From: a virus
Length of the DNA stretch: 47,613 nucleotides
Virus record (IMG/VR): IMGVR_UViG_3300015373_000008
Coordinates: 1-47,613 of that record
Reading direction: 5' to 3' (one strand)
This document shows, one piece after another, positions 19,435 to 45,685 of this stretch. The position numbers and the translations under genes were made by a program. Positions within the stretch are counted from its first letter, which is position 1; each line of letters starts with the position of its first letter. The notes beneath the pieces are model-generated. The model was given only the letters and a program-made list of their open reading frames with translations. It had not been told where the DNA came from and searched no databases.

Positions 19435-20043
19435 CTATTTGACTATCCCGAGGGAGAGGATGCGTAGGATGAGTGGCGCGGAGTCTTGTACACTCTTTTC
19501 CGTATCCTTCACAACCTGGTTTATTTGCTGCTGAATTTTCTCCGTATCGGTAGCTTGCGATTCACGGAGCGATTCGAGGCTCTGTTGGATAGCCTCAAGA
19601 CGAGCGTCCATCCGCCGGACTGCATTGAGGAGGTCCGTGATATCAGGGGGTAGGTCAGATGCAGCTGGGGGCTGCGCCTGTGGCTCGGGAGGCGCAGCCC
19701 ACCTAGATGGATCAACGCGAGTTGGGTTAACGACCCACATAGGAGTGTTAGGGCCTTGCGGCCCACCACCGAGTATGTCGACGATCGTACCGTCTTTATA
19801 GGCGATTATGTCCACCGCGAAGCCCTGACAGTTGTTGCCTGTAGGCTTGAGCAGGACGCCGGCACCTTCAGCCTGTAGGGCGATCGCGACTCGCTTTGTT
19901 ACTTCGAAGCGAGCGCACTCGTCAGATGCGGGGGCGTCGGGGTTGATACCTGCGGCGATAGTCTGGGCTTTAGCCGCGGCGACGATTTCGCGGTGGTCAA
20001 CGTTCTGGGAAAGGAGCAGAATCGCCGCAAGTATCCAGTACAT
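19435..20043 (-). CDS. Exported protein with C-terminal coiled coil
   Basis: A 202-aa protein. An N-terminal signal-like segment (YWILAAILLLSQN) is followed by a conserved-looking domain (CARFEVTKRVAIALQAEGAG, then GNNCQGFAVDIIAYKDGTIVDILG), a Pro/Ala linker and a coiled coil at about 145-190. I have seen the central domain in environmental phages but know no function. GGAGG lies five bases before ATG 20043. A periplasmic role in lysis, superinfection or wall contact is possible. Confidence 0.6.
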   Translation of the reverse strand: MYWILAAILLLSQNVDHREIVAAAKAQTIAAGINPDAPASDECARFEVTKRVAIALQAEGAGVLLKPTGNNCQGFAVDIIAYKDGTIVDILGGGPQGPNTPMWVVNPTRVDPSRWAAPPEPQAQPPAASDLPPDITDLLNAVRRMDARLEAIQQSLESLRESQATDTEKIQQQINQVVKDTEKSVQDSAPLILRILSLGIVK

Positions 20044-20282
20044 TAGAACCTCCCTCTATGGGTGATGGCGGAGTTCGCGTCCATCCGTGCCTCGCGGAGT
20101 TTGCGCAACGCGACCGAACGATCGGGACAGGGTGGTACGGTGTTTAAGATAACCCGCGCTGCGTGGATTAGTGCTGCGCGCACCTCCGTGCCGGCTTGCA
20201 TCTGCTCTGCATCCCACTGGTGATAGGTGAAGCAGTCGTCGACGTTCTCGATAGTTAGGACTTCAGTGCCTACTTGCTTCAT
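20043..20282 (-). CDS. Acb2/Tad1-like cyclic-nucleotide sponge
   Basis: A 79-aa protein. FTYH at 18-21 and the C-terminal helix ALRKLREARMDANSAI at about 58-73 match the Acb2/Tad1 hairpin family (DUF7681), in which members such as phage Acb2 sequester cyclic oligonucleotides or gcADPR made by CBASS and Thoeris defence. I choose ATG 20282 because it gives an ATGA overlap with the helicase gene and lies nine bases after GGAAGG; an upstream ATG at 20291 has no spacing from it. Ligand specificity cannot be read from sequence. Confidence 0.72.
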   Translation of the reverse strand: MKQVGTEVLTIENVDDCFTYHQWDAEQMQAGTEVRAALIHAARVILNTVPPCPDRSVALRKLREARMDANSAITHRGRF

Positions 20283-21676
20283 TTTGTCCATCCTTCCGGT
20301 GTGAGTGAGTAGGATTTGTTCTGAGGATCGAAGTCGACTAGCTTAGCTTCGCGCAGTGTCGCGACCGCTGCTTTGAACTGGTCCTTGTTGAGGCGGTTAC
20401 TGTTCATGCGAAGCCATGTGCTGTGCGCGATGAAGCCTCCTTTCGACTTTATTTGCTTGAGCATTTTCGCGGTCTCCTCGCCGAATGTGTTCTGTGACAT
20501 CTCACTGAACGCAGCAGGCAGTTGGGCTTCGACCCAGTTGAGGATATGTAACGACCGTTGCATCGTTTTACGGGTGATTTTGAGCAGGTCGGGGGAGGTC
20601 CTTTCGCTTTGCAGTTCGCTGACGGTGAGGATCATCGCGAGGCGGTGCATATGGTCAGCCTTGCGTTCCGAGTAGCCCGCGAATTGCTTGTCAGGCATAG
20701 CCGTCTCGTCCCTAGTCTTGTACCAGTTGATGTACCACTCGTCCGCATTCGGTTCGATTGTAAACTGCCCCTTGATTTTGCTGTACTGGAATAGACGTTC
20801 TTTGAGTCTGTGCTCCAGCTCAGGCGAAAGTGGGGGAGGGTGGGGGAAACACCTATTCGTCTCATTCTGTACGACGAAGAGGAGACGGCTCATGAAGCCA
20901 CCACCAAAGGCGTCCTTCGGAATAGCCGTTTGGATCCAGTCCATCGTGCTACACATCAACGCGGAGAGGGCAACGTTGCGCAGACGCCTTTCGCCGTTCA
21001 TCACAGTTAGCGAGGACCATTCCTTCGGGCAGTCGAATAGGGCGGTCAGTAACGGAACCATCCCTTCGTTGTACTTCTGTTTCCCGAGGAAGACTGCGAG
21101 TTCGGGTGCGTATATCAGGCCGGTAGCGCTTGTACGGTCTTCGAACGCCGTAACGAGGGCTTCTGGTGTGACCTTATCGGCTAGGATATTCCCACCAATT
21201 GCTCGGAATAGGTTGACTGCGATATTGCAAGCGCTGGTTTTACGACACTTACCCGTGGGCGCCACAATGACGACGCATGGGTTGGGGAAGATCTGATACG
21301 CTCCCATGTCGAAGAACACATTACGGGCGAGTGCTGCGCCGATTGCTGTAACTCCGGCGAAGAAGTGGAATGGGGTGGGTGGTTCGGTGTTTTGCGTGTA
21401 TTGGATGTAGTCATAGAGCCAGCCTGTTGAAGGCAGGAGGTCTTCGAAGACGATGGGTTTGGGGCCCTTTCGCAGTCTTGTGTCGAGGGTAGCTTGGTCA
21501 ATGTTCAGTTTGCGCTTGAGCAGGTCGATCAACTCGACCGGACGCGACGCTGTCGGTAGGTCACGGACCCAGCTTACTACTTTCTCGGCAAAGCCATCTT
21601 GCAGTTCGGCGGCGGACAGTTGTTTGATATGCCGGGTTAGGATCTCAATCTGCCGACTAAGAGTAGGTGGAGGCAT
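20279..21676 (-). CDS. DUF3987-type replicative helicase/ATPase
   Basis: A 465-aa protein. ATG 21676 is preceded by GGAGGT; the longer GTG start at 21754 would overlap the DpdA-like gene by 65 bases. A P-loop-like segment APTGKCRKTSA lies at about residue 140, followed by conserved KVTPEAL, ELAVFLGKQKYNEGM, LFDCPKEW, STMDWIQTAIPKDAFGGGF and SRLLFVVQ, typical of DUF3987/RepA-like phage helicase proteins. No TOPRIM primase motif is seen. The C-terminus (about 400-465) has a winged-helix look. It would act at the fork with the PolA-type polymerase. Confidence 0.75.
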   Translation of the reverse strand: MPPPTLSRQIEILTRHIKQLSAAELQDGFAEKVVSWVRDLPTASRPVELIDLLKRKLNIDQATLDTRLRKGPKPIVFEDLLPSTGWLYDYIQYTQNTEPPTPFHFFAGVTAIGAALARNVFFDMGAYQIFPNPCVVIVAPTGKCRKTSACNIAVNLFRAIGGNILADKVTPEALVTAFEDRTSATGLIYAPELAVFLGKQKYNEGMVPLLTALFDCPKEWSSLTVMNGERRLRNVALSALMCSTMDWIQTAIPKDAFGGGFMSRLLFVVQNETNRCFPHPPPLSPELEHRLKERLFQYSKIKGQFTIEPNADEWYINWYKTRDETAMPDKQFAGYSERKADHMHRLAMILTVSELQSERTSPDLLKITRKTMQRSLHILNWVEAQLPAAFSEMSQNTFGEETAKMLKQIKSKGGFIAHSTWLRMNSNRLNKDQFKAAVATLREAKLVDFDPQNKSYSLTPEGWTK

Positions 21677-21689
21677 AAACACCTCCGGT

Positions 21690-22442
21690 TTATAGGTATT
21701 TCCGCAGGTATGCAACATTGTATACAATGTCTGGATATGCTGCTTGAATGTCACCCGCGAAGCCGGAGATGATTTTCTCTGTAGCGGGTAGGCCCCTTAG
21801 GGTTTGAATGGAGGCGGTTAGCTTGTGCCCTAGTAGGCCGAATTTGATTGGTTTCGCGGTGTCCACACTAAGGCGGTTGTGGGGGACGCCGAAGGTGTTG
21901 AAGGCCTGTCGAAATGCACTTAGCTCGTTTAATTCGTTTACCCCGAGCAGGTGGATACGTGGAGGCCATTTTATATGGTCGGGGATCTTGCGTGTGAGGT
22001 CGAGGAACCATTCAAGTCGCGGCGCGCGAAAGGGAAAGCAGATCATGTCGGCGTGATCTTTCAGCTTCATGAACATCTCCGCCCGTTCCGAGGGTGAGGC
22101 CCCAGCGAGAACGAAGGCGATCTTCTGATGCCGGGGCAGGATGTTGCGGGTCGCGTGGAACGCCTCCATCCCGAACCGATAGTCGCCAAGTTTGTCCGGC
22201 GCGATTATGATGTTCGGTTTGCTAAGCGAGGCGGCTTGCTTTAGTTCCTCCGGCGAGAGGGGGTGTCCTAGCTCGTGGAAGGAGTTGTCCATTATGACGA
22301 AGCGGCCGATTTCGGCTTGGTTTGTGTAGAACTGTCGGTACTCATCGTCTTCGAGGATTAGGTGGGCCAGCGTGAAGTCCAGGTCAGTTAGGCTGGTTAA
22401 GTTGTGCAGGAAGGGCTTTGGGATTTCCATCGCGAGTCGCAT
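21690..22442 (-). CDS. dpdA: DpdA-like DNA 7-deazaguanine transglycosylase
   Basis: A 250-aa TGT-like barrel protein. Motifs are VIMDNSFHELG (about 49-59, Asp52), IHLLGVNE (163-170) and SVDTAKPIKFG (192-202, Asp194), matching phage DpdA proteins, which exchange guanine in DNA for preQ0 or a derivative. The start ATG follows the polymerase stop directly (TGAATG) with GGAGG upstream. The gene cluster also holds folE, queE, queD and queC, which supply preQ0. I see no queF or arcS-type gene, so preQ0 itself is the likeliest inserted base. Confidence 0.78.
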   Translation of the reverse strand: MRLAMEIPKPFLHNLTSLTDLDFTLAHLILEDDEYRQFYTNQAEIGRFVIMDNSFHELGHPLSPEELKQAASLSKPNIIIAPDKLGDYRFGMEAFHATRNILPRHQKIAFVLAGASPSERAEMFMKLKDHADMICFPFRAPRLEWFLDLTRKIPDHIKWPPRIHLLGVNELNELSAFRQAFNTFGVPHNRLSVDTAKPIKFGLLGHKLTASIQTLRGLPATEKIISGFAGDIQAAYPDIVYNVAYLRKYL

Positions 22443-24971
22443 TCAAGCCTCCGTTATGTTAAGGTATTGCGTAAGCTGTTTGTTCCCTTTCTTACACTCG
22501 CGCCAGTTTAATCCGACGTGTACGTCGCAAGGACAGAACCATCCGTCCGGATAATAGTGTCGGACAGTGTTAGGTCGATCGGAATACTCCACGATGTTTC
22601 GCCAGTGCTGATGCATAACTCCGCGCAGAGTGTCTGCGGCGGTTTTCGCGAGGTCTTTGGGAACGCTAAGCAGAATCGAGTCGTGCACTGTAAGACGGAG
22701 GGCTTCATGAGGTAATTCCCGTTCGAGTTGGGGTAGGATCAAATACATCATATCCGCCGCTGTGCTACTAGGTGGAAAGTTATACATTTCTGTGACTTGT
22801 CGGGTGTACCACCAGCGACGGCGACCGAAAGCGTTACGGAGGTACGAGTCTTTTGAAACCTGCCGTTCAAGCGAATCCCGCCAGCGCCAGTATATTGGAA
22901 ATCGTGTACGGAACCGCTGGATAAAGCGTTCAACCCACGTAATGTCTCGGCCAAGCTGCTTAGCGATGTCAGTAGCGCCTCGCCCGTAGCCGAGTCCATA
23001 TACGATGAACTTGGTTTCGAACCGGGGTGAGCCCCAACCGCCCCCGGCTTCAGCGTCCCGGCGCAGGACCTCGGCGATAGGAAGTTCAAAGCATTCAGCT
23101 GCGACGGTTGTGTGGTTGTCGACGTTCTGGCTGAGGAGTTCGAGCCCGAACGGCTCTCCCGCAAGGACCATGGCAAGGCGCCACTCGATTTGCGACCAGT
23201 CGGCTTCGATGAGGACATGTTCAGGTGTGTCAGGGATATAGAGTTCACGTACTTCGAGTGGTTGGTTCTGGAAGTTAGGCGACCAGGAGATGAGTCGGCC
23301 ATTACGGGCACCAGAACCCTTTTCGCCCTTCTCCGCAGCCTTGGCTGAGCCGATATGGTAGTGTACGAAACCCGCGTCATCCGGTTCCGTTTGCAGGTAT
23401 GTGCTATCCAGCTTCAGTACTTTCCGGCGTTTGTGGATCAACGCGAAGATGGGCTGCGCTGTTACCTTCGCTAGTTCGTCGAGCGCGTTATCATCTACTG
23501 TAGGGATCTGCCCACGCTTTTTGTCCTTCTTATACTGCGTGGGCAGGCCCATCGTGTCGTAGAGTAGTTTGCGTAGCTGTTGCGGTGAGTCAAGGTTGAC
23601 GTCGAAACCGATAACGCGCTTGATCTTTTCCTCCAACTCCTTTGCAAGCCTGCGGGCGCCGAAGGACATCTTATGGGCTTGAGCTTCATTTTGGCGGAGA
23701 CCGCGAGCGGTCATTTTGCGAAGGACTGGTTGGAGGGGCATGACACTCTTGTAGTAAAGGTCATGCATGTCCAGGTTGCGTAGTTCATCGCGAAGGCTGA
23801 GGTAGGCGCGGCAAGTCGCGTCAACGTCCTTACAATTGCCAAGTTTCAGGGCGTCGAACCCTGACTTGTACATTGCGTCGCCCTTCCAAGGTGGGATGTC
23901 GGCGGCGTATAGCGACGCGATGAAGTCTAGGTTCTTTTCGAGGTCGCTGTTCGTCAGATGGAAAGCTTGAAGGGTATCGAAGCTGGGTCCGGCGAAGTTG
24001 AAGGAGCGGTGTTCGCAGTATGGGATGTCGAAGCCTTCTCCATTTTGCGTGACCTTTTCAACTGCGGGATCATTAAAGAGTTCGTGGCAGAGCTGCTGAG
24101 TATCAGGTGTGAAATGCAGAGCGTGAGCTTCGTACGGCCTTGTGGTAAGGCCCATAACTGTAATCTGGCCTGTGCCCAAGTCCAGTCCCTTATTTTTGTG
24201 CCGGACGATGCCCTCCGCCTCAAGGTCGAAGACGACGTATCCAGCTGCTCGCGCAAGTGCTGTAAACTCTGCTGCATGATATGGTAAGCTACCTGTTGTG
24301 GTATAGTACGTTTTATGCTGACGGATTTCGCGGAACTGACCTTCGACTTTGGCGCGGGCCAGGTCGTGGACCGCGAGTGGCCATAATTCTTGCTGGCGCA
24401 TGATGAACGCGGGGTGGTAGACCGGGAGGACTTTGCAGGCTTCGCCTGCGGTTTGCGTGGCATTTACCTGTCCCTCCTTGTGAAGAGGAGACGGCGTCGG
24501 TTTTTGTAGTGGGCGAAGCGCAGGTCCTTCGAGGATTCGTCCGCGGTATGCACTAATCGGACTGCATCCAGTAGACACATACAACGCCGTCGCTCCGAGG
24601 GCGACGATAAGGTTTGGACGAATGGTAGCCAGCTCTTCGGCAAGAAAGTGAGCGCAATGTCGGATTTCCGCTTCTGTGGGAGCTCGGTCGATTGGTTTGC
24701 CACTCGCGCCCTCCGTTGTTGGTCTGCACTTCACGACGTTCCGTACTTCACACTCATCGATGTCCAGGCCTGTTTGCCGGAGCCATGTTCGGAGTACTCG
24801 ACCTGCTCCACCTATGAAGTTTTTATTCAGTTGGACTTCATCGCGACCTGGAGCTTCGCCTAGCAGGAGTATTGCTGCGGGACGCGGAGGCTGAGCGAAG
24901 ACTGGCCCGGGTGCTTCGTATAGGGGACAGCCCATGCACCAGCTAGGTTTTATGTCGCTGAATTGGCTCAT
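22443..24971 (-). CDS. UDG-exonuclease-PolA fusion DNA polymerase
   Basis: An 842-aa three-module protein. Residues 1-210 form a family-4-like uracil-DNA glycosylase: CMGC (Cys12, Cys15), GEAPGRDE (38-45), NVVKC (Cys82), Cys106, and HPA at 186-188, the likely Fe-S and active-site set. Residues about 240-390 are a 3'-5' exonuclease (DLE at 249-251, later NGEGFDI). Residues about 400-842 are a family A polymerase: motif A ADWSQIEWRL, motif B with KFIVYGLGYG (a Tyr in the nucleotide-selection site) and motif C VHDS. It is the replicative polymerase. Confidence 0.88.
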   Translation of the reverse strand: MSQFSDIKPSWCMGCPLYEAPGPVFAQPPRPAAILLLGEAPGRDEVQLNKNFIGGAGRVLRTWLRQTGLDIDECEVRNVVKCRPTTEGASGKPIDRAPTEAEIRHCAHFLAEELATIRPNLIVALGATALYVSTGCSPISAYRGRILEGPALRPLQKPTPSPLHKEGQVNATQTAGEACKVLPVYHPAFIMRQQELWPLAVHDLARAKVEGQFREIRQHKTYYTTTGSLPYHAAEFTALARAAGYVVFDLEAEGIVRHKNKGLDLGTGQITVMGLTTRPYEAHALHFTPDTQQLCHELFNDPAVEKVTQNGEGFDIPYCEHRSFNFAGPSFDTLQAFHLTNSDLEKNLDFIASLYAADIPPWKGDAMYKSGFDALKLGNCKDVDATCRAYLSLRDELRNLDMHDLYYKSVMPLQPVLRKMTARGLRQNEAQAHKMSFGARRLAKELEEKIKRVIGFDVNLDSPQQLRKLLYDTMGLPTQYKKDKKRGQIPTVDDNALDELAKVTAQPIFALIHKRRKVLKLDSTYLQTEPDDAGFVHYHIGSAKAAEKGEKGSGARNGRLISWSPNFQNQPLEVRELYIPDTPEHVLIEADWSQIEWRLAMVLAGEPFGLELLSQNVDNHTTVAAECFELPIAEVLRRDAEAGGGWGSPRFETKFIVYGLGYGRGATDIAKQLGRDITWVERFIQRFRTRFPIYWRWRDSLERQVSKDSYLRNAFGRRRWWYTRQVTEMYNFPPSSTAADMMYLILPQLERELPHEALRLTVHDSILLSVPKDLAKTAADTLRGVMHQHWRNIVEYSDRPNTVRHYYPDGWFCPCDVHVGLNWRECKKGNKQLTQYLNITEA

Positions 24972-25496: not shown

Positions 25497-26051
25497 TTAG
25501 GGTGTGCCGATGAGTTGGAGGAACTCTTGACGGGCAGTTTGGTTCAGGAGGAATACACCCGACATACGGGAAGTAACGATATCGGATGTCGAACGGATTC
25601 CCCTATAGTGCATACAACCGTGCCGTCCGACAACGATACAAGCAACTCCCTGTGGGTGTATACTACGTTCAAGCGAGTCGACGACGGCGTCTGTGAGTGA
25701 CTCTTGCAGTATGGGCTGGGTAAGTTGAGACTCAACGGTCCTGGCAAGCTTAGAGAGGCCGAGGACTCTACCCGAAGGGATATATCCAACAGACACCCGC
25801 ATGGTAGCTGGTAAGAGGTGGTGCGGGCAAATCGCTGTAACCTCGTGCCCACGAAGCAGGATAAGGTTGTTGTGCCTGTTTTCGAACGACTGCATGTTGT
25901 TTTGGCGAGGCGTAAGCAGTTCGCGGTAAAGCGCCGCCACACGCCGCGGCGTGTCTCGAAAGTTCTCGCCATGAGTATCGATACCCATCCCCTCTAATAG
26001 AAGGGCTACACCCTTCTCCATCTTCCGAGTATTGAATGTGTCTGCTGGCAT
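25497..26051 (-). CDS. folE: GTP cyclohydrolase I
   Basis: A 184-aa protein. It converts GTP to 7,8-dihydroneopterin triphosphate, the first step towards preQ0 as well as folate. CPHHLLP (75-81) and GRHGCMHYRG (142-151) give the zinc ligands Cys75, His78 and Cys146. GRVLGLSKLAR (94-104) is the family signature. The length is near the shorter bacterial enzymes. It starts after queE with GAGGT eight bases upstream, and its product feeds QueD. Confidence 0.93.
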   Translation of the reverse strand: MPADTFNTRKMEKGVALLLEGMGIDTHGENFRDTPRRVAALYRELLTPRQNNMQSFENRHNNLILLRGHEVTAICPHHLLPATMRVSVGYIPSGRVLGLSKLARTVESQLTQPILQESLTDAVVDSLERSIHPQGVACIVVGRHGCMHYRGIRSTSDIVTSRMSGVFLLNQTARQEFLQLIGTP

Positions 26052-26057
26052 TTCGCG

Positions 26058-26687
26058 TTACCTCACGGTTAGGTACTTATGCAGTTGGGTGCTGAGGCGA
26101 AGGTTAGGGTGAGCGAGAACTGCCTCAATAGCTTCGTGCATCGCGGCCTCGTTCACCGCGTCCTTCGAGTTGCGAGGCTGGATGTAGACGGGTCGCATGA
26201 TGTTTTGGGCCCATCGAAGGGCGTCCTGTAGAGTGGGCCAACCGGAGCCTTCGCCCAAGCCACCGAGAATGACCTTCACCTCGTCGGCGTTAGCGACCAT
26301 GGCTTCTAGGTACTTTGGCTTTGGCGACACGGTGATCCAGAGCGAGGTGCTACGAAGGGGCGGGCGAGACCAGTAAACGGTGCCGCTTGTTTCGATGTGA
26401 ACGGTTTTGCGCTGACAGAGCTTGAGCAGGGGGAGGAGGTCACGGTCTAACGGCTCGCCACCGGTGATACAGATGTGTAGCATGTTATCGACCCATGCTA
26501 GGAGGTCCTCGGGCGAGTAGAGGCCACCACCTGATTCGGTGTACATCCGGTCGAAGTTCGTGTCGCAGGCCGTGCAGACTTTCTGTCCTACACTGCAACC
26601 GACCAGGCGGATGAAGGCCATAGGGGTACCGGTGTACTGTCCCTCACCCTGAATGCTGCGAAATCTCTCAGCAACTGGATACTTCAT
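26058..26687 (-). CDS. queE: 7-carboxy-7-deazaguanine synthase (radical SAM)
   Basis: A 209-aa radical-SAM enzyme that converts CPH4 to CDG. SIQGEG (11-16) and GGEP are family signatures. The cluster cysteines are C31, C38 and C41, a CX6CX2C spacing that differs from the common CX3CX2C and from the CX14CX2C form. ATG 26687 has AAGGAG seven bases upstream, located inside the LAGLIDADG gene. Its first codons (MKYPVAE) recur at the start of that gene. Confidence 0.9.
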   Translation of the reverse strand: MKYPVAERFRSIQGEGQYTGTPMAFIRLVGCSVGQKVCTACDTNFDRMYTESGGGLYSPEDLLAWVDNMLHICITGGEPLDRDLLPLLKLCQRKTVHIETSGTVYWSRPPLRSTSLWITVSPKPKYLEAMVANADEVKVILGGLGEGSGWPTLQDALRWAQNIMRPVYIQPRNSKDAVNEAAMHEAIEAVLAHPNLRLSTQLHKYLTVR

Positions 26688-27030
26688 TTCTGCTCCTTTT
26701 TCGGATAACCTCTTTATCTAGAGCTAAAGCTTCTTGCAGTTTGAGACGTACTAGTTTCGTCCGTTCGTCTGAAACGTGCTTCCCCATAATAGAGAGGGAG
26801 GGTTCGCATTTCTTCCCTGTTAAGACCCATCTGGGACAGGTAGAACCGTTCTCGTATACACCCCCTCCGAAGCGGTCTTGTAGCCAATCGCAAAGGTCAC
26901 CGTACATAGATACAACTACCTGTAACGCTACAGCGTCTTTACCGTTTCCTCGTAGCGTAACGCAACCTTCTCCATCGAATAACCCAGCCGCGTATGCTAA
27001 GTCATGTTCGGCGACTGGGTACTTAAGCAT
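26668..27030 (-). CDS. LAGLIDADG homing endonuclease between queD and queE
   Basis: A 120-aa single-motif LAGLIDADG protein. The motif is AYAAGLFDGEGCVTL near residues 12-26; a single copy means it would dimerise. ATG 27030 overlaps the queD stop by eight bases and the gene ends inside queE codons 5-7. Its first eight codons (MLKYPVAE) repeat the queE N-terminus with three synonymous base changes, so it appears to have captured the queE start. It is a free-standing mobile gene rather than an intron. Activity and site are untested. Confidence 0.78.
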   Translation of the reverse strand: MLKYPVAEHDLAYAAGLFDGEGCVTLRGNGKDAVALQVVVSMYGDLCDWLQDRFGGGVYENGSTCPRWVLTGKKCEPSLSIMGKHVSDERTKLVRLKLQEALALDKEVIRKRSRNEVSSC

Positions 27031-27439
27031 GGCGTGCGTACTCCGTGTACGAGACGAAGCAGTCTCGCGTTTCGCAGACACGAATGTGTACTTCGGGTTG
27101 GTTAGTGAGGAAGGACTGTAGTCCAAGGGCCCAAGTCATGGCGAGGATCTCTGCGGTAGGAGGGTGAGGGATTGTGATGACCTTCGCAAGGGGTTCTAAT
27201 GCTGCGGCGAGGGGGTCACCCGATTCTACGCAGAAGGCGTGATCCCATCCGAGGAAGTAGTCTCTGCACGCCTTCTTCAGGTCGGCGAAGTCGATGACCA
27301 TCCCCGAGTTTGGGTCGGGTTGACCACGCAGGGTAACGGAGATGAGGTAGTTATGCCCGTGAGCAAAGCGACACGCACCGCGGTGCTTCTGTAGCCGGTG
27401 GCCCATTGGGAGTTCTAGTGTATAGGCGATGTCTATCAT
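27023..27439 (-). CDS. queD: 6-carboxytetrahydropterin synthase
   Basis: A 138-aa T-fold enzyme turning dihydroneopterin triphosphate into CPH4. Zinc ligands His14 (MGH), His27 and His29 (AHGHNY) and the catalytic Cys23 (CRFAHGH) are present, as are PTAEI and CETRDCFVSY near the C-terminus. Length is typical. ATG 27439 overlaps the previous stop (TGATG). With FolE, QueE and QueC it completes a preQ0 pathway. Confidence 0.92.
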   Translation of the reverse strand: MIDIAYTLELPMGHRLQKHRGACRFAHGHNYLISVTLRGQPDPNSGMVIDFADLKKACRDYFLGWDHAFCVESGDPLAAALEPLAKVITIPHPPTAEILAMTWALGLQSFLTNQPEVHIRVCETRDCFVSYTEYARHA

Positions 27440-30821: not shown

Positions 30822-31578
30822 TTGCTGTGTCCTCGGCAGGCAAAGCCTGCAGTGGGAGTGGTTGAGCTTCGGGCGAGGTGCAACCTTCGCTGTCAACGCG
30901 AGTTGGTGGTGAGGCTGCTATGTCGTTACCGAAGAGGAATGCCGCGGCTAGGGCGCAGTTCCCATCAGACGGACGGATAAAACCCTCAAACGCGCCGCCG
31001 TATCCACCGCCATATTTGCCGCTGCTCCTAAGGCTTGCCCGTACTCGAAGCATTCCTCCGGCGAGGCGGACTGTAAGCCATCCTCCACCAGTGATTCCAT
31101 AACTTCGGATAGTCCTTTCGCTATGTCGTACGTTAATACCGAGGTCCGCAATATCTGGCCACAGCTCTCGCGAAGTAGGGAGTGGAGGGTCGTCGACGTC
31201 GGGTTCCAACTGCTGGTCGATGGCTGTGAGGCCGATCGCGATTGCTTGTGCTCTAGCAGGTTCGATATTGGCTTCGGTGACGAGGAATTCGGTGTATCGT
31301 TGTCGTTGTCCATAGTCCGTCCATTTACACGCAAGGCTGCGGAGATATGTGTCGCAGTCGGATTGTGACCAGGCCATTGGAAGGGTTCTGAAGCCCCACT
31401 GACGGAAGGGTCCGGTTTGCGTTGGCGGTGAGGCGACAAGGCCGAGGCAAGCGGTGTCGTCGTCGTAGCTGTGGCTGCGCAGGTACATATTTTCGCGGGG
31501 CGAGGTCCAGATGTCGTGCCGCGACTCTATGTGGTCGATGAGTTGTTCGGCTTCCCACCAGAGTAGCATCAGACTCAT
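30724..31578 (-). CDS. Hypothetical protein; real in its N-terminal half
   Basis: Open for 284 codons from ATG 31578, which overlaps the queC stop (ATGA). Residues 1-145 look genuinely coding (LIDHIESRHDIWTSPRENMY, then YTEFLVTEANIEPARAQAIAI). From about 31140 downwards this frame turns into Gly/Ser/Pro-rich sequence, while another frame looks coding, and its last 33 residues are a shadow of the nuclease N-terminus. The protein may end early through a frameshift (programmed or sequence error) or be overlapped by a nested gene. Confidence 0.5.
   Translation of the reverse strand: MSLMLLWWEAEQLIDHIESRHDIWTSPRENMYLRSHSYDDDTACLGLVASPPTQTGPFRQWGFRTLPMAWSQSDCDTYLRSLACKWTDYGQRQRYTEFLVTEANIEPARAQAIAIGLTAIDQQLEPDVDDPPLPTSRELWPDIADLGINVRHSERTIRSYGITGGGWLTVRLAGGMLRVRASLRSSGKYGGGYGGAFEGFIRPSDGNCALAAAFLFGNDIAASPPTRVDSEGCTSPEAQPLPLQALPAEDTANGTAGNVLDAGAGDAAANTAEPTARPDLPESV
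30822..30947 (-). other. Spacer with GCAGGC-AAA-GCCTGC hairpin (30836-30850)
   Basis: A perfect six-pair stem with a three-base loop sits 15 bases upstream of the nuclease start. The frame of the preceding gene runs through here without a stop, but its residues look unlike a folded protein. I read it as probable spacer. See the frame conflict under the neighbouring genes. Confidence 0.4.
30948..31151 (-). CDS. Small helical protein in an alternative frame (nested or frameshifted)
   Basis: The frame ending at 30948 encodes AKGLSEVMESLVEDGLQSAS, then EECFEYGQALGAAANMAVDT, ending in LRVLSVRLMGTAP, a convincing amphipathic helical protein. Possible starts are TTG 31151 (67 aa) or ATG 31100 (50 aa); neither has a strong SD. 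It may instead be the true C-terminus of the gene starting at 31578. A coding-potential analysis or close homologue would decide. Confidence 0.45.
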   Translation of the reverse strand: MRTSVLTYDIAKGLSEVMESLVEDGLQSASPEECFEYGQALGAAANMAVDTAARLRVLSVRLMGTAP

Positions 31579-32276
31579 TTTGCCGCCTGCGGCGTAGCCG
31601 CCGCCGCAGGCCCGTATTGGGTTGGGTCATGTAGGCCGGCTAGTGTAAAGGCTTCGTGTCGCTCGACGCAGGTGCCACAGAGGCCACAGTGAAGCGGTTG
31701 GCCTTCGTAGCAGCTGTAGGTTAGGTGGAATGGTACATCTAACTGGTGACCGAGGGCTACGATGTCTGCCTTAGTTTTACGTAGGAACGGCGTTTCGAGG
31801 TAGATGGGGCTGAAGTGACAGATGTGGAGGAGCTCGGCCATCTTCCAGGCGAATTGGGGACGACAGTCTGGGTAGATAGCGTGATCGCCGGCGTGAGCAG
31901 CGTAGGCGATGTGATCGTAGCCAAGGCTAATTGCACGCGCAGCGGCTAGAGAGAGGAGGAGCATATTACGGTTCGGGACTACGGTAACTTGCATCGACTC
32001 GTCCATGTAGTGTCCGTGTGGCACCGCGACAGAGTAGTTCGTTTGGCTACTTTCTGCGTTGTGGAATATACTCGGGTCGATGTGCGTTTGGTATAGCGGG
32101 ACGCCAAAGGCTTGGGCGATGTCTGATGCAGCCTTTAGCTCGCGCGTGTGGCGTTGACCGTAGGCCACCGCGAGTGCTTCGATGGGATTGCCTACCTCCT
32201 TTCGGAGGAGGTAGGCAAGTAGGGTGCTCGAGTCGAGACCGCCCGAGAGCAACGCGACGAAGCCTCGCTTCATCAT
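31575..32276 (-). CDS. queC: 7-cyano-7-deazaguanine (preQ0) synthase
   Basis: A 233-aa ATP-dependent enzyme that converts CDG to preQ0. The PP-loop SGGLDSS lies at 11-17, later VPNRNMLLLSLAAARA is family-typical, and the C-terminal zinc site includes CHFSP-like context and CYEGQPLHCGLCGTC. No amidotransferase (Gat) domain is fused, so it should stop at preQ0. ATG 32276 overlaps the previous stop and has GGAG seven bases upstream. Confidence 0.93.
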   Translation of the reverse strand: MMKRGFVALLSGGLDSSTLLAYLLRKEVGNPIEALAVAYGQRHTRELKAASDIAQAFGVPLYQTHIDPSIFHNAESSQTNYSVAVPHGHYMDESMQVTVVPNRNMLLLSLAAARAISLGYDHIAYAAHAGDHAIYPDCRPQFAWKMAELLHICHFSPIYLETPFLRKTKADIVALGHQLDVPFHLTYSCYEGQPLHCGLCGTCVERHEAFTLAGLHDPTQYGPAAAATPQAAK

Positions 32277-44435: not shown

Positions 44436-45311
44436 ATGCCCGCAAAACTCGAGTTGGATGCGAACGGCGTTGTTACGACGCCTGGTAGGTTTCAAGGCAG
44501 GCACATTGATGAGGTGTACAACTACTTAGAGGGTCTAGAAGCGGCTGTAACGCAACAGGTAACGACTGCTGCAGAACCGCAGGCTGCGCAACCGCCGCAA
44601 GTTGCGCAGCCACAAGTGGGGCAGCAGCCAAGTCAGCAACCACAGGCCCAACCGGGGACGGCGCCTCAACCGCCTGGGTCGACGGACGCTGCCTCGCGAT
44701 TGGCTGCTGCCTCTCAACGTAGGATGGACCCGCTACAGGCGATGACTCTGCAGCGCCTTGAGCAGGATGATGAGGAGGCGTTTGCTGCGCAGGTTTCGGA
44801 TTATGAGGTGTACCGGGAACAGATAAATAAGGTGAAGGGTACGCTCGCGCCCGAAATCCGGGCGCAACGCAACCTGCACCGTACACTGTACATCAACGTG
44901 AAGTCGAATGACGAACGGATCCGGCAGAGGCTTTATGAACCGTTACCCGCTGCAGAGGGCGGTGACGAAACTGCGCCAGTTACGCAGACTGCACAACCGG
45001 CTGCAGCTGGACAGTCGACACAGCAGCCTCAGACTGGCGCAGCAACTCGCGTTGGGCCACAGGCCGCTCCACCCATGGCTCGACCAACCCCCGCCTCTCG
45101 CGCGGCGCAGCCTCCACCGAAGAAGGCCAAACTCATCGCGACGGATAAGGTCAGAGCGTTTTGTCGGCAGACGGGACAGAACGTCGACGAGTACCTCCTG
45201 CGGCTCGAAGCGAATGGCGTGACGCAGAGCGAGATGGACAACGCGGGCCAGTTGGGTCGGACAGCGGAACAGCGGACTCATGTGTACGATAGGAAGAGGG
45301 CAGGGGCATGA
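44436..45311 (+). CDS. Scaffolding-like protein
   Basis: A 291-aa protein. Low-complexity Gln/Pro-rich stretches (about 45-85 and 185-230) separate charged helices (about 90-180), and the C-terminus carries a basic segment (KVRAFCRQTGQNVDEYLLRL). Charged helical proteins between portal and capsid genes are usually scaffolds that guide capsid assembly. GAGGTG lies five bases before ATG. Confidence 0.68.
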   Translation: MPAKLELDANGVVTTPGRFQGRHIDEVYNYLEGLEAAVTQQVTTAAEPQAAQPPQVAQPQVGQQPSQQPQAQPGTAPQPPGSTDAASRLAAASQRRMDPLQAMTLQRLEQDDEEAFAAQVSDYEVYREQINKVKGTLAPEIRAQRNLHRTLYINVKSNDERIRQRLYEPLPAAEGGDETAPVTQTAQPAAAGQSTQQPQTGAATRVGPQAAPPMARPTPASRAAQPPPKKAKLIATDKVRAFCRQTGQNVDEYLLRLEANGVTQSEMDNAGQLGRTAEQRTHVYDRKRAGA

Positions 45312-45685
45312 CTCTCGACTGGATCGTCGGCTTCTACGAAGGCGAGGGTTGCTGTACTCTACTACGCGGAGGCGCTGAGCTTCATCGTCTTCGAGTTTGT
45401 ATTGTACAGAAGGAAGAGGGTGTACTATACAAAATACAAGACTTCCTTCGTAGGGAGTACAATATTGACGGTTTGATCTGTCCCACTGGGGATTGCTGGC
45501 AGTACTACATTCAAAGGCAGCAACACGCGATAGCGTTTCTGAACCTCATTCGGGATAGAATACAGAGTGAGAAGAAGGGGACGCAGATCGATACCGTCTT
45601 CCGTGAGTACGTAGTACAAAGGAAGTTGAGCCCTCCAAAGACTGTAGGTGGAACGAAGAAGTTCGTTCCGAAGGTGGTTGCATGA
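45308..45685 (+). CDS. LAGLIDADG endonuclease in the head operon
   Basis: A 125-aa protein with one LAGLIDADG motif (DWIVGFYEGEGCC at about 4-16). It starts and ends in ATGA overlaps, and GCATGAST-like words (GCATGACT, GCATGAGT) flank it, as if inserted into an existing start-stop junction between scaffold and head genes. It interrupts no gene. Endonuclease activity is inferred. Confidence 0.78.
   Translation: MTLDWIVGFYEGEGCCTLLRGGAELHRLRVCIVQKEEGVLYKIQDFLRREYNIDGLICPTGDCWQYYIQRQQHAIAFLNLIRDRIQSEKKGTQIDTVFREYVVQRKLSPPKTVGGTKKFVPKVVA

Follow-up and report, generated by a model that had tools for sequence, protein, structure and literature searches.

A probable Acb2-type cyclic-nucleotide sponge encoded next to a primase/helicase-like gene in a phage with predicted modified DNA

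The window analyzed here is the whole of a 47,613-nucleotide viral record (IMGVR_UViG_3300015373_000008); IMG/VR contig 3300015372_000026 is 99.9% identical to it over 8.8 kb and represents the same virus. On the minus strand, a small open reading frame (20282..20043) encodes a 79-residue protein, MKQVGTEVLTIENVDDCFTYHQWDAEQMQAGTEVRAALIHAARVILNTVPPCPDRSVALRKLREARMDANSAITHRGRF, which would reach 82 residues if begun at the ATG at 20291. The ATG at 20282 is the most likely start; a sequence resembling a Shine-Dalgarno element, GGAAGG, lies 9 nt upstream of it and abuts the ATG at 20291. Residue numbers such as Tyr23 and Arg38 refer below to the 82-residue form. A previous sequence-only reading placed a sponge-like protein at 20043-20282 without giving a strand. 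These coordinates fit the 79-residue form, and the motifs quoted in that reading, FTYH and ALRKLREARMDANSAI, occur exactly as given in the minus-strand frame from either start, while the plus-strand frame at 20043..20282 is closed by stops.

The gene lies tightly between its neighbors (Table 1). Its ATG at 20282 overlaps the TGA of the upstream gene (ATGA), and its stop has one base in common with the ATG of the downstream gene (TAATG), so that the three genes look translationally linked. The upstream gene is of the DUF3987 or phage DNA primase type, consistent with its description in the sequence-only reading as a replicative helicase. The downstream product has a hydrophobic N-terminus and possibly a coiled coil; Pfam and PHROG profiles gave only weak matches to it, mostly of coiled-coil type.

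Table 1. Features of the hairpin locus and of the DNA modification genes in the window
Feature	Position	Strand	Evidence
Downstream gene, 202 aa, function unknown	19435..20043	-	ORF
Acb2-type hairpin protein, CDS	20043..20282	-	ORF; PF24729 6e-6; phrog_1454 1e-10; AlphaFold2 pLDDT 90
DUF3987 primase/helicase-like gene, upstream of the hairpin gene	20279..21754	-	PF13148 3e-14; phrog_14296 3e-41
Shine-Dalgarno-like GGAAGG (putative)	20292..20297	-	Sequence
DpdA-like DNA guanine transglycosylase, 250 aa	21690..22442	-	DpdA of Flavobacterium phage immuto and CP220-group Campylobacter phage proteins, 27-29% identity
FolE, GTP cyclohydrolase I	25497..26051	-	PF01227 2e-44
QueE-like radical SAM	26058..26687	-	TIGR04322 2e-24, under its cut-off
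QueD	27023..27439	-	PF01242 7e-24; TIGR03367 2e-20, under its cut-off
QueC	31575..32276	-	PF06508 2e-54; TIGR00364 6e-48, over cut-off

The modified-DNA context proposed earlier is borne out by the presence of FolE, QueE, QueD, QueC and a DpdA-like transglycosylase. This gene set leads one to expect a 7-deazaguanine in the phage DNA, probably dPreQ0 or a derivative, made by the known pathway (PMC6884629). The DpdA-like protein has no Pfam match; its DpdA-annotated match in the Flavobacterium phage sits among folE and queF, and Campylobacter phages of the CP220 group encode hypothetical proteins that are 28-29% identical to it. For Campylobacter phages without a recognized DpdA, a DpdA-independent dADG route was suggested in 2019 (PMC6884629), and this protein family may be the enzyme overlooked there. 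The window also encodes a family A DNA polymerase (22443-24971, minus strand) that carries a uracil-DNA glycosylase-family domain at its N-terminus; between the two, a 3'-5' exonuclease profile matches weakly. Two possible free-standing homing endonucleases of LAGLIDADG type were also observed: one at 45308-45685 (plus strand), with a weak Pfam match below cut-off (E 0.004), and one between queE and queD at 26668-27126 (minus strand), suggested by a motif (LFDGEGC), for which the stretch scanned gave no Pfam support.

The hairpin ORF is not a chance reading frame: it matches PF24729 and a PHROG family of unknown function (phrog_1454), it has 53 distinct relatives, and it evolves under purifying selection, with a dN/dS whose median over 15 close pairs is 0.155. 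Scans of IMG/VR and GTDB contigs yielded 61 viral and 3 genome loci with relatives, and the alignment used throughout holds 54 distinct sequences, that is, the 53 relatives and the window protein. A Pfam search with the window protein returned PF24729 (Acb2_Tad1_hairpin) over model positions 1-57 of 58, with 26.7 bits, 0.3 bits short of the cut-off of 27. Relative L032 scores 28.0 bits and most canonical relatives 37-51, all over the cut-off, and 52 of the 54 aligned sequences match the model (E up to 0.1). T4 Vs.4 (Acb2) matches the same model in the same register, its Tyr8 occupying the profile position of Tyr23.

Profile comparisons extend this relationship. The clade of the window protein matches a canonical PF24729 set, 13 proteins encoded by cultured phages or found on contigs, with an E-value of 4e-27, and the canonical profile in turn reaches six chains of 'Acb2 homolog 43' (PDB 9ptq; E 3.7e-6 against all PDB sequences) and T4-type Acb2 (E 1e-4, single comparison). 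When hhalign sets the 54-sequence alignment directly against T4-type Acb2, the match is marginal (E 0.011), with one register kept from end to end; family membership therefore rests on the profile chain rather than on a direct match. A single-sequence PDB search with the window protein returned just chance matches to MurA-type enzymes, and a hand-made consensus-like query found no match in cultured phages, where the window protein itself has a single match (36%, canonical type). A weak match of canonical members to the HK97 capsid protein (E 0.28) was judged to be due to chance.

AlphaFold2, run on a monomer with a 21-row alignment, predicts helices at 17-20, 28-51 and 56-77 with a mean pLDDT of 90, in agreement with the Acb2 fold (PMC10419184). 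In a Foldseek search of the PDB, three chains of the T4 Vs.4:cGAMP complex occupy ranks 1-3, but with E-values above 1. In the BFVD viral fold library, the top matches are nearly all Acb2/Tad1 hairpin proteins (probability 1.0), several of them with an rmsd of about 1-2 Å. Together with the PF24729 match, the presence of T4 Acb2 in the same model and the profile chain, these fold matches uphold the family assignment first made from the sequence, and the window protein is almost certainly a member of the Acb2/Tad1 hairpin family.

Within this family, the window protein shares with Acb2 (T4 Vs.4, PDB 7uq2; Pseudomonas phage PaP2/PaMx33 p26, PDB 8h2j) the PF24729 domain in the same register, a size of about 80-90 residues, a short N-terminal helix followed by an antiparallel hairpin, and a tyrosine and a basic residue at pocket positions; the second-helix motif [RK]L[RK]EAxM is shared with T4-type Acb2. 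Direct sequence similarity to the T4 and PaP2 proteins is marginal, and their inter-helix loop is about 20 residues longer. The short-loop hairpin (P[ED]G type) is instead that of Acb2 homolog 43 and of the canonical PF24729 proteins of Paenibacillus, Mycobacterium, Gordonia and Lactococcus phages, to which the profile match is strong. The canonical pattern FTYHxP...Y...REAVMxANASIA compares with YHxW...G...REARMD[AC]NSAITHxGK[YF] in the window branch.

In T4 Acb2, Y8A abolishes cyclic-dinucleotide binding, Tyr8 is also required for Panoptes activation, the ligand is stacked upon by Phe82, and a reduced affinity is described for T68M (PMC12657218, PMC12657230). In laboratory E. coli, T4 Acb2 is toxic when expressed together with Panoptes OptSE (PMC12657218). 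Tyr23, the counterpart of Tyr8, is kept in 49 of the 54 aligned sequences. Arg38, kept in 50, aligns with T4 Lys23 and with Lys26 of PaP2 p26, the latter a cyclic-dinucleotide pocket residue. The window protein has Thr77 in place of T4 Phe82, and in place of Thr68 an arginine, Arg63, that is invariant in all 54 sequences. Forty-six of these form what we call the W-type set, in which Trp26 and Gly34 occur together in 44 members; the remaining eight have Pro or Ala at 26 with Tyr, Phe or Leu at 34. The W-type set is further marked by Arg69, by Asp71 and by GK[YF] at the C-terminus. This pattern may reflect ancestry alone. The W-type members found here come only from uncultured phages and contigs of Acidobacteriota metagenome-assembled genomes (MAGs), the latter being the source of all three genome contigs with hairpin relatives. 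A canonical PF24729-type protein annotated as hypothetical, gp101 of Tunturiibacter phage Tunturi_1 (L094), belongs to a cultured phage of an acidobacterium, so that tests in Acidobacteriota could conveniently begin with it.

No conserved neighborhood was detected across the hairpin relatives: of the window genes tested, none but portal, major capsid, terminase and polymerase has a homolog beside any relative, with neighbors called by longest ORF, a rough procedure in these GC-rich contigs. Several relatives lie near portal and major capsid genes (L036, L037, L038, L066) or near a tape-measure gene (L044, L048, L053, L060), a location that is unexpected for an anti-signaling protein; these late-region relatives are probably expressed late rather than early. 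The gene directly follows the portal gene in Gordonia phage Schomber, accompanies an exonuclease/helicase in Lactococcus phage 1706, lies among early-type genes in Paenibacillus phage Bob and precedes the terminase in phage Jasmine. So varied a neighborhood is what one would expect of a mobile accessory gene rather than of a structural one. We also observed an unannotated canonical hairpin ORF in the Cyanophage S-2L record (L095, 35199-35402), most of it in an interval between tail genes. S-2L is known for its diaminopurine DNA, making this another case of an Acb2-type hairpin with modified DNA.

Studied members of the family soak up the alarm nucleotides that trigger bacterial suicide on infection; Acb2, a homohexamer, sequesters cyclic di- and trinucleotides, leaves them uncleaved and inhibits CBASS. 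We propose that the window protein is probably an Acb2-type, hairpin-only sponge of cyclic nucleotides, directed against CBASS-type signaling. Produced from the replication operon, it would fold into a short N-terminal helix and a helical hairpin and assemble into a hexamer, as solved Acb2 does. The conserved second helix, together with Tyr23 and Arg38, would form pockets that capture the cyclic di- and/or trinucleotides produced by the CD-NTases of a host CBASS; the free signal would fall and effectors would stay untriggered. That CBASS is inhibited in this way is a reasonable inference. CD-NTase genes (SMODS, PF18144 over cut-off) are present in 21 of 150 genomes in the order of a Solibacteraceae MAG carrying a hairpin relative, so that plausible hosts do possess synthases of the CBASS type. 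On the other side of the balance are the residues that differ at binding-linked T4 positions (Phe82 to Thr77, Thr68 to Arg63), the branch-specific Trp26/Gly34 and Asp71, the PF24729 score just under its cut-off, the marginal hhalign comparison, the Foldseek PDB E-values above 1, and the late-region relatives.

The residue differences would be accommodated if the W-type hairpin bound a signal that is not among the CBASS nucleotides tested so far, such as a different cyclic oligonucleotide or the cyclic oligoadenylate of type III CRISPR systems. We hold this as a tentative possibility; as a sub-case of the sponge reading, its probability overlaps with that of the latter. It draws on the paired, pocket-proximal change from the canonical Pro26/Tyr34, on the other branch-specific residues and on the loss of T4 Phe82 and Thr68, but the core second-helix motif and Tyr23/Arg38 are common to canonical members and Acb2, and the paired change may be due to shared ancestry only. 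That the W-type forms a separate branch of sponges, found in uncultured phages of which some are apparently linked to Acidobacteriota, with a pocket rebuilt through Trp26/Gly34, Asp71 and GK[YF] to take a cyclic nucleotide that known Acb2 proteins do not bind, seems rather unlikely; if true, it would point to an unstudied defense signal in Acidobacteriota-linked hosts. A non-immune role, as a small virion-assembly or nucleotide-metabolism protein whose hairpin sequesters no defense signal, has in its favor the copies near virion genes, that of Schomber among them. We consider it improbable, as the context varies, from helicase here to the settings in 1706, Bob and Jasmine, in better agreement with an accessory gene, and the closest solved relatives bear the name Acb2.

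The sequence-only reading also envisaged inhibition of Thoeris. A Tad1-like sponge capturing gcADPR has in its favor the hairpin domain, which is C-terminal in Tad1 and belongs to the same Pfam family, as the name of PF24729 indicates, and a weak match to Tad1 itself (PDB 8kbb, E 0.43). In Tad1, an antiparallel beta-sheet domain precedes the hairpin; the gcADPR pocket draws on this domain and on loops, and two protomers contribute the conserved loops and helices that line it (PMC12043709). The hairpin fills the window protein: only 18 residues precede it in the 79-residue form, and AlphaFold2 predicts no strand. Absence of the beta-domain speaks against Thoeris inhibition in the Tad1 manner, and an anti-Thoeris sponge of this kind is very improbable. 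CBASS-type cyclic nucleotides are likelier ligands than gcADPR.

As an Acb2-type sponge, the window protein would add to a studied anti-CBASS family an uncharacterized branch, for which no cultured-phage member was found here. It also offers precise residues at which a changed choice of ligand could be tested. Finally, with a putative sponge beside the preQ0/DpdA gene set, a single phage is probably guarded against both restriction and nucleotide-signaled suicide, and the 'layered' counter-defense envisaged in the sequence-only reading may be regarded as a reasonable picture.
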